A DNA stretch of 29,352 nt from a virus. The position numbers and the translations under genes are program-made. The notes beneath the pieces were generated by a model that was not told the origin of the DNA, did no database searches, and saw nothing but the letters and a program-made list of their open reading frames with translations. This document shows, in pieces, positions 4,551 to 8,966 of this stretch. The stretch's first letter is position 1. Each line of letters starts with the position of its first letter. The stretch lies in the IMG/VR virus record IMGVR_UViG_3300032360_000037, positions 1 to 29,352 of that record; one strand, 5' to 3'.

Positions 4551-4738
4551 TAGAGGACGCTCCAATCTACTGGCATATGCCATAGGACTGCAAAGAATAA
4601 GTAAATCAAACCACCTACCCACAATCCGAGTCTGATGGCTTTATCTTTGATAAATACTCCAATAAGTAGGAATAAACATACTACTGATATATCCCAGTTA
4701 AACATTGCTTTTTGTTCTATTAATTCCCAAAATTTCAT
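4547..4738 (-). CDS. Small membrane protein between cobT-like and cobS-like genes
   Basis: A 63-residue protein with two likely transmembrane helices, around residues 17-30 (SVVCLFLLIGVFI) and 37-53 (LGLWVGGLIYLFFAVLW), joined by a short basic loop (KDKAIR). This suggests both ends on one side of the membrane with the positive loop inside. No family is recognised. Its ATG overlaps the stop of the CobT-like gene as TAATG, so it is translationally coupled to it. Its 3' end contains the -35 of the cobS promoter. The position between two partner genes suggests it may anchor or modulate the AAA+/VWA complex, which is an inference from context only. Confidence 0.75.
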   Translation of the reverse strand: MKFWELIEQKAMFNWDISVVCLFLLIGVFIKDKAIRLGLWVGGLIYLFFAVLWHMPVDWSVLY

Positions 4739-7146
4739 TATGCAACCTTCTTGATGAAGTGTTGTAAAATCTTTCTTTGAGAAAGTTTGTTTTTACCCAT
4801 TCTCATCATTGCACCTTTAAGTTTTTGTTTAGAGGCACCTTCTTCTACATTGAGGTTGTCATCTTCAACTACAATTGACATCTTTTTCTTGTTTAACATG
4901 TAGAATTCTTTCCATCCAGAGGCTTTACCACAATTAAGTTTGATACCGCCATCTCTTCTGAAAAGTTTAAAATCTTCTTTGTTCTTATCCCATTGGTCAT
5001 GGTAATCTATATCTAATTTTGAAAACTGTTCTGCATATCTGTCAAACTTTCTGTATTTTTGGTCACAAACAAAGAACCCAACAGTATCAACTCCAGTAGT
5101 ATCTTCTATCCATTTTAAGAGACAATCAGTAGAACCACTTTCAACATCATCATTATAGTGACTGTAATATCTGTCAGTATGATAATCATAAGTCTTTTTA
5201 AATTTTCTATCGTGGAAGAGATATTTTCTACCACCTTTATAAGTTATCCCATGAGCATGAAAAGAATCTCCATCACTCAAAGTAACAAATTGAAGTTTGT
5301 CAATGTTGTAGTTATGTTTGAATTCTGTGATGTAATCTCTTATGATTAGTAAACTTTCATCCAGTGGAGTACCACCTAAGTTATATTGGTAAACTTGGTT
5401 ATAAGGATTTTGGAAAGGAGCATCATTATCATTTCTGTAATAAGTCATGGAATCAACTTGAATCATCATAGTTGTTAACATTTCTTTCCAATCTCTTTTG
5501 TTCATTTTGTCAGAGAAAAGTTCCAACATTGCAGTTTGTCCTACAAAAACTTCATCTTGTGCTTTTTGATCTTCTAAGTGTTGATGCCATGCTTGTCTTT
5601 CTTCGATAGTTTTTCCTTTTCTATATGCATCTGAAAATGCATAAACTCTATGAGGAATTCCAACCCTTCTGCAAAACATCACTAGGATTGCACACTGTTC
5701 AAAAGTCTCTTTAATGCAGTCGTGCATTGACCCAGACCAGTCTACCAGTAAGATCATACCATGATTCTTACCATCTGGAACAACAGTAACTTTCTTAAAG
5801 ATATCATCTTTAATTAAGTATTGATAAATCTTCTGCATGTCAATCTCACCAGACTTGGCAGTCATTGCCTTCTTGTAATTTGATGCAGCTTTTCTCATGT
5901 CAAATTCCTTTGCCATGTAATTCACAATCTTTTGATTGTGATCTATAAATTCTTGGACATATCTGTCAGCATCTGTATGGTCGCCTACTTCAAGGTAATC
6001 CCATTCTTGAGTTACATTGTTCCAGAATTGTTTTTTATTACCTTCATCTATTTGGTGTTGCCATCCTGCTTTCATTTCTTCAAGAATGGTTTTATAACCA
6101 ACTTTATGATCTTCCCATTTAATTTTTTTGGTGTTTAATTCTAGATAAGAATTATCACTTCCCCATTCTTTATTATTATCGTCATGGAGAAATTCTTGTT
6201 CTTTTTCTCTTGATGCCTTGTCAGTTAAAGATTCTTTTGCATTATCTTCTTGACTGCCAGCACCTTTTCCATATTCAGATTTTTCAGACTCTTTTTCATC
6301 CTTATTATCTTCATCTTTACCATCTTTGGAAGACTCACCTTCTTCATCAGATTCTTCATCACCAGACTCAGCACTTTCATCAGACTCAGAACCTTCTTCA
6401 TCAGATTCTTCATCACCAGTTCCAGTGGTTTCATTTTCTTCACTAGATTCTTCTTGATCTTCTTGAGGAAAAGACATTGATTCACCATCTTCATCTTCAT
6501 CCATTTCCATACCATCTGGGTCTTGAACTTGAGGAACCATCATTTGATTTGGGTCTTCTTGAGGTTCAACTTCTTCTAACTTGGATAACTCATAAAGGTA
6601 ATCTGCCATTTTGACAACTTTTTCCCAAGTATCCATTCTCTCAAGAGCATCAATGATCTTCATTTCTTCTTTAGAAAAATCAAGCATCATAGTATGTCCT
6701 ACTTTGAAGCTAAGATTAATTCTATCAATAAATGCAAGTTTGTTTGCATCCTTATTCTTAATTCCAAAAAAATCTATGTCATTGTTTAATTCTTTGTATG
6801 CATCATAAAAAGACCTTCTCAAACCAGCATACTTGTTTTTGATTGCTTTCTCAATTCTTATATCTTCTAGGACATTGAGATATCCTTTATACTTCATTCC
6901 TTTTTCACATACCGCTGTATGCCATCCATCTTCTGGCGTATTCAATGCATGTCCTACTTCGTGACCCATGAATAGATCATAAAGGTCAGCAGACATATTA
7001 TCTTTAAGGATTGGACAAACGAGTTTTCGTTTTTTAAGTTCAAAATAAGCAGTAGGAACTTTCCTATGCTCTATAATTAAATCTTCCTGTGCGAGTAGCC
7101 TTGCAAGGGAATCTTTAGAAGTTCGTGTATAGTTAAGTTCTCTCAT
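4738..7146 (-). CDS. CobT-like VWA protein with HExxH motif
   Basis: An 802-residue protein with a three-part layout. The N-terminal part has GHEVGHALNTP (HExxH at residues 62-66) and a downstream LEDIRIEK near 93-100 that could supply a third metal ligand, as in VWA-associated zinc metallopeptidases. The middle (about 190-330) is extremely acidic and Ser-rich, as in CobT. The C-terminal part is a von Willebrand factor A domain with a MIDAS motif DWSGS at 469-473 and a later LGGTPLDESLL segment. CobT works with the AAA+ protein CobS in cobaltochelatase, and the CobS-like gene is two genes downstream. The ATG lies 7 nt after a TATAAT and lacks a Shine-Dalgarno, so the mRNA is probably near-leaderless. 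Whether it helps cobalt chelation, acts as a peptidase, or serves a chaperone-like complex is open. Confidence 0.85.
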   Translation of the reverse strand: MRELNYTRTSKDSLARLLAQEDLIIEHRKVPTAYFELKKRKLVCPILKDNMSADLYDLFMGHEVGHALNTPEDGWHTAVCEKGMKYKGYLNVLEDIRIEKAIKNKYAGLRRSFYDAYKELNNDIDFFGIKNKDANKLAFIDRINLSFKVGHTMMLDFSKEEMKIIDALERMDTWEKVVKMADYLYELSKLEEVEPQEDPNQMMVPQVQDPDGMEMDEDEDGESMSFPQEDQEESSEENETTGTGDEESDEEGSESDESAESGDEESDEEGESSKDGKDEDNKDEKESEKSEYGKGAGSQEDNAKESLTDKASREKEQEFLHDDNNKEWGSDNSYLELNTKKIKWEDHKVGYKTILEEMKAGWQHQIDEGNKKQFWNNVTQEWDYLEVGDHTDADRYVQEFIDHNQKIVNYMAKEFDMRKAASNYKKAMTAKSGEIDMQKIYQYLIKDDIFKKVTVVPDGKNHGMILLVDWSGSMHDCIKETFEQCAILVMFCRRVGIPHRVYAFSDAYRKGKTIEERQAWHQHLEDQKAQDEVFVGQTAMLELFSDKMNKRDWKEMLTTMMIQVDSMTYYRNDNDAPFQNPYNQVYQYNLGGTPLDESLLIIRDYITEFKHNYNIDKLQFVTLSDGDSFHAHGITYKGGRKYLFHDRKFKKTYDYHTDRYYSHYNDDVESGSTDCLLKWIEDTTGVDTVGFFVCDQKYRKFDRYAEQFSKLDIDYHDQWDKNKEDFKLFRRDGGIKLNCGKASGWKEFYMLNKKKMSIVVEDDNLNVEEGASKQKLKGAMMRMGKNKLSQRKILQHFIKKVA

Positions 7147-7201: not shown

Positions 7202-7906
7202 TTAGAAGTGCTTTTCTGCCCAGTCATACCAATAAGGGTCATCCCTTTGATATAATTCAGCTGGTTTTACCCTTGCGACTCGATCTCTCACGAAATCGTA
7301 TGGCTCATCAAGGTATTCAAACCAATCAACTAGGTGAAGATTGGTTGATTCTGAAGCCCTTTTTCTTGCTTCTTTGACCATTTTTCTGAATTTGAAGAAC
7401 TTAATTGGGCTGAGAAAAAGTGTTCGGAATTGGAACATCCATGAGACAATCTGATATCCTCTCATGTAGGATTGTGCTATTTCATACTCAATTCTGAGTA
7501 TTTCACCAGCTACATCTTGACCATAATCTGTCATTATGTGTGATATATCGTGACAGTCTATAATCCAATTTATGAATGCAATTTGTGGATTCTTAGGTGG
7601 TAGTGTATTTAACTTTCTGAGATCACTTGTTTTTCCAGCATACTGTCCTAGAAATTTAACTAATACATCTCCAACAGAATTTTTAGGGTATGTATCTTTC
7701 AATGGTAATCTCTCACCATTCTGATATTTCTTACCCATAGATGTTTTACTCCATTCATTGATTCTGTCATCAAGACAAGTACCATTCAAAGAAGTATTAA
7801 TATCTACAAATCCTTTAGTATTACTCTTAGACTTTAACAAGATCATCATTGCTTTGATGCCCTTGATTGGTTGTATTTTTTGTTTACCCATCTTTGTAAA
7901 TTTCAT
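7202..7906 (-). CDS. Coq4-like ubiquinone biosynthesis protein
   Basis: A 234-residue protein carrying the Coq4 family signature HDxxH(x11)E exactly: H119, D120, H123 and E135, in the segment WIIDCHDISHIMTDYGQDV followed by AGE. An upstream SVGDVLVKFL segment (77-86) resembles the helix that precedes this motif in Coq4. Coq4 proteins bind a metal through this motif and act in ring modification during coenzyme Q synthesis, associated with membranes. The N-terminus is basic. The start overlaps the stop of a 41-aa membrane protein as ATGA. In a phage this could keep respiratory quinone supply going during infection. The motif match is exact, but the rest is divergent, so substrate and function are inferred. 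Confidence 0.68.
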   Translation of the reverse strand: MKFTKMGKQKIQPIKGIKAMMILLKSKSNTKGFVDINTSLNGTCLDDRINEWSKTSMGKKYQNGERLPLKDTYPKNSVGDVLVKFLGQYAGKTSDLRKLNTLPPKNPQIAFINWIIDCHDISHIMTDYGQDVAGEILRIEYEIAQSYMRGYQIVSWMFQFRTLFLSPIKFFKFRKMVKEARKRASESTNLHLVDWFEYLDEPYDFVRDRVARVKPAELYQRDDPYWYDWAEKHF

Positions 7907-8028
7907 AGATTCTTTATATTCTTAAATCCACTAAAAATAAAATATAAAATCATGTACCAAAATCCAAAGATTAAGGCCCACTTAAAACCTAAAAAAGGCA
8001 ATTCTAAAATTATCCACCATATATCCAT
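7903..8028 (-). CDS. 41-aa membrane micropeptide coupled to the Coq4-like gene
   Basis: A 41-codon gene. AGGAG lies five nt before the ATG at 8026-8028, and the TGA overlaps the Coq4-like start as ATGA (7903-7906). The product starts MDIWWIILELPFLGF, continues with a hydrophobic, aromatic-rich segment (KWALIFGFWYMILYFIFSGF), and ends in basic KNIKNL, which fits a single-pass membrane peptide with a cytoplasmic C-terminus. The good ribosome-binding site and tight coupling make it more than a chance frame. Coq proteins work in membrane-bound complexes, so a recruiting role for the Coq4-like protein is plausible but only inferred from position. Confidence 0.7.
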   Translation of the reverse strand: MDIWWIILELPFLGFKWALIFGFWYMILYFIFSGFKNIKNL

Positions 8029-8036
8029 ATTTTCTC

Positions 8037-8255
8037 CTATTGTAATGTTGGGCTATCATAAGGTCTGATTTTGTCTTCACTCCTAACAATAGTTTCCATC
8101 ATACTTTTAAATTCTTCATCATTAAGAACACTTTTATAAATCCTTAAAGCTTGTACCACCATATTTCCTGCTATTGCTAGTTCAGAATACTTCCCTTGAA
8201 GTTCTAAAACCTTTGTGAATAACTCTTCATAACAATTGCTTAATTCATCATCCAT
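8037..8255 (-). CDS. Hypothetical protein, 72 aa
   Basis: Not recognised. A small, largely alpha-helical, acidic protein (MDDELSNCYEELFTKVLELQ, then a helix AIAGNMVVQALRIYKSVL and a charged tail). No catalytic motif or membrane segment is visible. AGGA lies eight nt before the ATG. It sits between a 2OG-Fe(II) oxygenase gene (gap 9 bp) and the 41-aa membrane protein gene (gap 8 bp) in a tightly packed operon. Confidence 0.7.
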   Translation of the reverse strand: MDDELSNCYEELFTKVLELQGKYSELAIAGNMVVQALRIYKSVLNDEEFKSMMETIVRSEDKIRPYDSPTLQ

Positions 8256-8264
8256 ATTTTTTTC

Positions 8265-8966
8265 CTATAAATCTGGAAAGTATGTATCTTTCCACCAGTT
8301 GCGAAGAGAAGTGAAATTCTTTTCATTGCTTCCCATATCTGGCAATGTTCCTCGATTAGAACCTGCTCTTCCCTCACCACCATGTGATTGAAGTTCCATA
8401 TTCTTCCATTCTGTTGTATACCAAATGGGTATAGTGTATCGGTCATTACCTTTACATGCATTTACCCCATGCCAAAATTTCATTCCTTCAAAGATGGCAA
8501 CCATACCTTGAACTGGCTGGATTTCCATACCACCTTCAAAATAAGTCGTGCCCTCTTCAAAGTTATCGTTTAAATAAAGAATAGATGCAAAATCTGTAAA
8601 TGGGATTGTTGCAGCTTCATCTTCATTTCCCATGACATCAATATGCATCTCCTGTGGGACACCTATTGGCCATCTCATTATTTCTGTTTGTTCTGGATAA
8701 CATCTTTTTTTATATAAAGACCAGATTTCAGAAATGACATCATACTGATATTTTGCAATAATCCTTTTGATGTCTAAGTTATTTATAGTCTCTAAAGGGA
8801 TTCGTCTACCATGATAAATGATATTCGGATCGTCATATGTGACTTTATTCTGATTCGCTTTGTGATACCTTATCAGAAGATTGCATTCCTTCTGACTCAA
8901 CACTTGGTGTAGGTAATGCACCTCTGGTTGCGGTAAACTCTTTAAGCTGTTTGACAAATCTGTCAT
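8265..8966 (-). CDS. 2OG-Fe(II) oxygenase, prolyl-4-hydroxylase-like
   Basis: A 233-residue iron- and 2-oxoglutarate-dependent dioxygenase. The double-stranded beta-helix motifs are visible: HID (H108, D110), FASILYLNDNFEEGTTYF as the central strands, WHGV (H166) as the distal His, and R176 in RYTIP to bind 2-oxoglutarate. The N-terminal LSQKECNLLIRYH is the usual entry helix of P4H-like proteins. The substrate is unknown. The start overlaps the 3' end of peptide deformylase by 122 bp in another frame. A GTG 45 bp downstream would shorten the overlap to 77 bp. The protein N-terminus fits the family, so some overlap seems real. Confidence 0.85.
   Translation of the reverse strand: MTDLSNSLKSLPQPEVHYLHQVLSQKECNLLIRYHKANQNKVTYDDPNIIYHGRRIPLETINNLDIKRIIAKYQYDVISEIWSLYKKRCYPEQTEIMRWPIGVPQEMHIDVMGNEDEAATIPFTDFASILYLNDNFEEGTTYFEGGMEIQPVQGMVAIFEGMKFWHGVNACKGNDRYTIPIWYTTEWKNMELQSHGGEGRAGSNRGTLPDMGSNEKNFTSLRNWWKDTYFPDL

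Follow-up and report, generated by a model that had tools for sequence, protein, structure and literature searches.

Background

Ubiquinone is an electron carrier of respiration, and Escherichia coli carries out the C1 decarboxylation step of its biosynthesis through UbiX/UbiD. In vitro, COQ4 was shown to decarboxylate C1 in a Zn-dependent manner (PMC7615680), and in human cells it is reported to act as an oxidative decarboxylase (PMC11495197); other C1 decarboxylases exist, e.g. UbiN (PMC10626278). Although UbiX/UbiD and UbiN act at the step reported for Coq4 (PMC7615680, PMC10626278), they are enzymes unrelated to it, UbiD working with prenylated FMN and UbiN being a flavin monooxygenase. 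The Coq4 family includes the yeast and human COQ4 proteins, Alr8543 from Nostoc (PDB 6e12) and 3msq, the last two being the two solved structures of Coq4 homologues. The metal ligands of Alr8543 are H120, D121, H124 and E136 (PMC9774615).

Auxiliary metabolic genes of phages are known, and those acting on the host quinone pool include the cyanophage plastoquinol terminal oxidase (ptoX) and viral ubiG (PMC7472177, PMC9301287). Quinone-linked phage genes have so far been mainly the cyanophage plastoquinol oxidase and ubiG annotations. Whereas ptoX oxidises quinol and ubiG methylates the ring, a phage Coq4 would work on C1 while the ring is being assembled, and would let phages intervene in a step that builds the ubiquinone ring in marine heterotrophs.

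Here we analyse a coq4 gene and the small membrane peptide gene preceding it in a 29-kb virus record (IMG/VR record IMGVR_UViG_3300032360_000037), studied over its 29,352 nucleotides (hereafter, the window). In our preferred interpretation, to which we give slightly better than even chances, marine T4-like phages carry the pair as an auxiliary metabolic cassette that serves the C1 decarboxylation of ubiquinone synthesis, and the peptide may be a partner of the enzyme in the membrane.

Results and discussion

Genomic context of the phage coq4 locus

The terminase of the window matched 2,527 phage records, the best match being Phage C48C1 (Kyanoviridae) with 58% identity, followed by Synechococcus T4-like phages, which identifies the window as belonging to a T4-like phage of marine type. 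Both ORFs described in an earlier sequence-only reading were recovered on the minus strand, one of 234 aa (7202-7906) and one of 41 aa (7903-8028). Along this strand, a 2OG-Fe(II) oxygenase-like gene (8265-8966; PHROG 2297 and 61) is followed by a 72-aa ORF (8037-8255), the 41-aa peptide, the 234-aa protein and a large PHROG 459 'peptidase' (4738-7146). coq4 therefore sits in a phage genome, with conserved phage genes on both sides and a T4-like terminase in the same record.

The IMG/VR collection was searched for relatives and few were found. The peptide/coq4 locus is shared by L001, L009, L010 and L146, whose Coq4 proteins are 73% (L001), 46% (L009 and L010) and 37% (L146) identical to that of the window; a further group, L002 plus four contigs that carry its Coq4, shows 42% identity and does not share the locus. 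Both flanking genes are conserved in L001, L009 and L010, with identities of 69-83% for the oxygenase-like protein and 61-80% for the 'peptidase'. Among 80 loci compared for the PHROG 459 downstream neighbour, coq4 adjoins it only in the phages nearest to the window. The 72-aa ORF, which matched no Pfam family at the family cut-off, is conserved in L001, and a Gcw_chp beta-barrel gene takes its place in L009, L010 and L146.

Two further features of the region were observed. Over about 120 bases (8845-8966 in the window), the end of a peptide deformylase gene and the start of the 2OG oxygenase gene occupy the same DNA in different frames, and this overlap is kept in L001, L009, L010 and L146. 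The Gcw_chp-like (PF09694) genes adjoining the peptide/coq4 pair, of outer-membrane type, lie at L009:5217-5822, L010:4993-5823 and L146:3097-3747, and in the L002 contig a similar ORF lies 8 kb away from coq4 (entry L228:16733-17329).

The 234-aa protein is a divergent Coq4

The sequence-only reading had described the 234-aa protein as Coq4-like, proposing a comparison of profiles and predicted structures as a check. In Pfam, PF05019 (Coq4) was the sole family retrieved at E ≤1, scoring 33.5 bits against a cut-off of 22.9; among the relatives, L001 (25.4 bits) and L002 (24.0 bits) also exceeded this cut-off, while L146 (20.2 bits), L010 (13.6 bits) and L009 (12.4 bits) fell below it. When a profile of seven phage Coq4 sequences was compared with the PDB, it retrieved Alr8543 (6e12, E 5.5e-8) and 3msq (E 5.9e-6). 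The AlphaFold2 model of the protein (pLDDT 80.8, pTM 0.77) reproduced the all-helical Coq4 fold over nearly its full length, matching 6e12 with a Foldseek E of 1.5e-5 and a VIA Z of 17.3 over 197 residues, at 15% identity in the structural alignment, and 3msq with a Z of 16.4; the next chain, of unrelated fold, reached 3.5.

The metal motif, located at 7502-7552 on the minus strand, was found exactly as claimed, with H119, D120, H123 and E135 and 11 residues separating the last two. These four positions align with the ligands H120, D121, H124 and E136 of Alr8543, and the motif HDxxH(x10-13)E is kept in all 38 of the Coq4-family sequences compared. Short HD motifs are common, and the motif could in principle be a coincidence in a protein from another HD-type family. 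We regard this as highly improbable, since Coq4 is the sole Pfam family at E ≤1 and profile and fold, with no better match elsewhere, indicate Coq4 alone. The 234-aa protein is thus almost certainly a member of the Coq4 family. Its real start may be codon 6, giving 229 aa, as the L001 Coq4 begins, in the alignment, at the position of M6 in the window protein.

A conserved membrane peptide gene precedes coq4

The 41-aa peptide gene is preceded by the good ribosome-binding site noted previously, an AGGAG (8034-8038, minus strand) located 5 nt before its ATG and identical in L001. In each of five divergent phage contigs (the window, L001, L009, L010 and L146) the gene immediately precedes coq4; the most diverged homologue, that of L146, was recovered with the peptide profile at E 7.8e-5. 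Residues I7, P11, F12, F15, W17 and W24 are invariant; position 9 is occupied only by E or D, and position 16 only by K or Q. Estimates of dN/dS, rough values because few sites are available, were 0.25 (window/L001), 0.10 (L009/L010) and 0.35 (a third pair), and the peptide is under purifying selection. Its model consists of a single helix spanning residues 3-40 (pLDDT 90), in agreement with the single-pass membrane protein proposed from sequence. Being conserved, selected and predicted to form one helix, the peptide is a real gene.

The ATGA overlap described between the two genes is present in the window, but the junction differs in the other contigs: a 1-nt gap in L001, a 14-nt overlap in L009 and L010, and a 5-nt gap in L146. 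What is conserved is the tight adjacency of peptide and coq4, not the exact overlap.

The peptide had no match in Pfam, PHROG, NCBIfam or the PDB, and no database match related it to small subunits of respiratory complexes such as CydX or CcoQ; sequences this short are easily missed in such searches. It was absent from the bacterial coq4 loci compared, so that the phage genes of this locus differ from these in being paired with a membrane peptide gene. A degenerate search of IMG/VR for the peptide core returned three coq4 contigs and three chance matches, the latter (L022, L026 and L027) rejected because the pattern lay antisense to, or within, larger phage genes. Weak peptide-profile matches were also obtained in L178 (E 5.1) and L183 (E 0.03), with no Coq4 in the region of either record.

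The pair is known from five contigs of a few metagenomes, in collections that may omit records near the window. Nevertheless, its recurrence down to 37% Coq4 identity, together with the low dN/dS of the peptide, indicates more than chance association. That the peptide is a dedicated partner of Coq4 is plausible, at or somewhat short of an even chance, and a role as membrane anchor is less certain still. The peptide could instead be an independent small phage membrane protein merely sharing an operon with coq4, for instance a modulator of host respiratory complexes or a lysis or exclusion factor, to which we assign slightly less than even chances. T4-like phages carry many small ORFs, contact between peptide and Coq4 is a proposal, and the L002 group carries coq4 and lacks the peptide, which indicates that not every phage Coq4 needs it. 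Against independence, the peptide stays immediately 5' of coq4 in five contigs while the preceding gene is exchanged (72-aa ORF or Gcw_chp), and in IMG/VR its core pattern occurs, chance matches aside, only in coq4 contigs. Should the peptide be a dedicated partner, a selected micropeptide tied to Coq4 would offer a short, testable handle on the contact between Coq4 and the membrane.

Quinone context and proposed function

The best contextual link between phage Coq4 and quinones is indirect, as it comes from the group without the peptide. In the sister group, L002, coq4 lies less than 1 kb from an alternative (quinol) oxidase gene (AOX, 221.9 bits), with cytochrome c and glutaredoxin genes also nearby and IscU farther along. 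This region (L002:3160-7437; IMGVR_UViG_3300017767_000003 and four related contigs), with NrdA/NrdB-like genes before it, looks like an electron-transport gene cassette made up of cytochrome c, AOX, glutaredoxin, Coq4 and IscU. No AOX was found in the peptide-bearing contigs tested, a set that left out the L146 contig. IscU was present in eight of the nine coq4 phage contigs tested; a NifU-like gene is also found in C48C1, and IscU is therefore not specific to coq4 phages. The neighbourhood of AOX and coq4 suggests that some phages handle the quinone pool and its oxidation jointly.

By analogy with animal COQ4, the metal site of the phage protein would remove the C1 carboxyl of the prenylated ubiquinone ring precursor at the inner membrane, and would thereby sustain ubiquinone supply and respiration during infection. 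More tentatively, the peptide, translated just ahead of Coq4, might sit in the inner membrane and hold or position the peripheral enzyme. Of the sequence-only reading, the Coq4 assignment, the single-helix peptide and the conserved pair hold, whereas its two-part quinone module and its membrane anchor are what we infer from them.

Family membership alone does not prove a role in ubiquinone synthesis, because bacterial Coq4 genes can be multicopy, with up to six matches per genome in some alphaproteobacteria, and one copy, on a Sphingopyxis plasmid, lies beside P450 and acyl-CoA dehydrogenase genes in a catabolic-looking cluster. The phage protein could accordingly use the Coq4 fold on another lipid or aromatic substrate, or in binding or scaffolding prenyl lipids. 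Besides these copies, such a role would fit the oleic acid present in the solved structure 6e12, the strong divergence of the phage clade and the occurrence of Coq4-fold proteins (6e12, 3msq) in cyanobacteria, which use plastoquinone. The full retention of the metal-site residues and the quinol oxidase gene near coq4 in the sister phage speak against it, and we consider this alternative unlikely. A role of phage Coq4 in ubiquinone synthesis is likely, if by a modest measure.

Candidate hosts

The AOX of L002 is 67-79% identical to proteins of mostly marine gammaproteobacteria, foremost SAR86 and Porticoccaceae, and a copy in an OCS116 alphaproteobacterium is 72% identical to it. The IscU of the L001 phage scored highest against G049 (0.9 Mb; 186 bits) and the SAR86 chromosome G009 (181 bits), with lower scores in other gammaproteobacteria (162 bits) and alphaproteobacteria (155 bits). 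Taken together, IscU and AOX hint at SAR86-like gammaproteobacterial hosts; genes of this type are exchangeable, and the host signal is consequently suggestive only.

Coq4-family genes occurred in 21 of the 240 alphaproteobacterial and 2 of the 229 gammaproteobacterial genomes sampled. Coq4 was found in none of four SAR86 genomes, and UbiD in none of 13 (G009, G013, G014, G017 and G605-G613), one of them a complete chromosome. UbiD was present in several other marine gammaproteobacteria searched, and an OCS116 genome contained Coq4 with no match to UbiD. Since the SAR86 and comparison genomes are mostly partial and alternatives such as UbiN exist, a gap in the host ubiquinone pathway is only possible. 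Speculatively, in SAR86-like hosts lacking both UbiD and Coq4 the phage enzyme might add a missing or alternative route. The stronger proposal that these phages supply such hosts with an enzyme for C1 decarboxylation, and that Coq4 has in the peptide a new and dedicated partner at the membrane, one restricted to these phages, we hold to be improbable as a whole. Phage Coq4 also bears on ubiquinone synthesis in marine bacteria without UbiD.

Relationships of phage Coq4 proteins

The earlier suggestion that the pairing may be undescribed agrees with our searches: the literature search returned no paper on Coq4 in phages, the coq4/peptide pairing is new to the literature searched, and tblastn with four phage Coq4 queries against 50,697 GenBank phages yielded no relative. 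Neither did a viral structure library (no match at E ≤0.001) nor a viral-profile scan of genome contigs for Coq4. In the tree, the Coq4 proteins of the locus-sharing contigs and of the L002 group fall into a single, fully supported clade on a long stem of 4.27 changes per column. The best bacterial matches of their profile were alphaproteobacterial (e.g. OCS116 genome G011, L114), with E 2.8e-19. These proteins share the motif but have about 260 aa, compared with 234 aa in the phage protein, and no micropeptide in the flanks searched. Bacterial homologues are distant from phage Coq4, and the tree points to no donor.

Two other Coq4-related sequences were observed in phage contigs. An unrelated phage carries a separate Coq4 of bacterial type (L143:4561-5340, contig 3300012952_003062; 86.8 bits), an independent acquisition, with 2OG-oxygenase-like, Hsp20-like and IscU-like genes nearby. 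Finally, the contig of L146 (3300009593_000010, ~102 kb) contains a second ORF of 359 aa with a C-terminal Coq4 domain (L227:4142-5221; HDLYHVLLGVGRDQLGE); before it lies a short ORF whose N-terminus is hydrophobic, and after it come ORFs of secretion- or fibre-like type.
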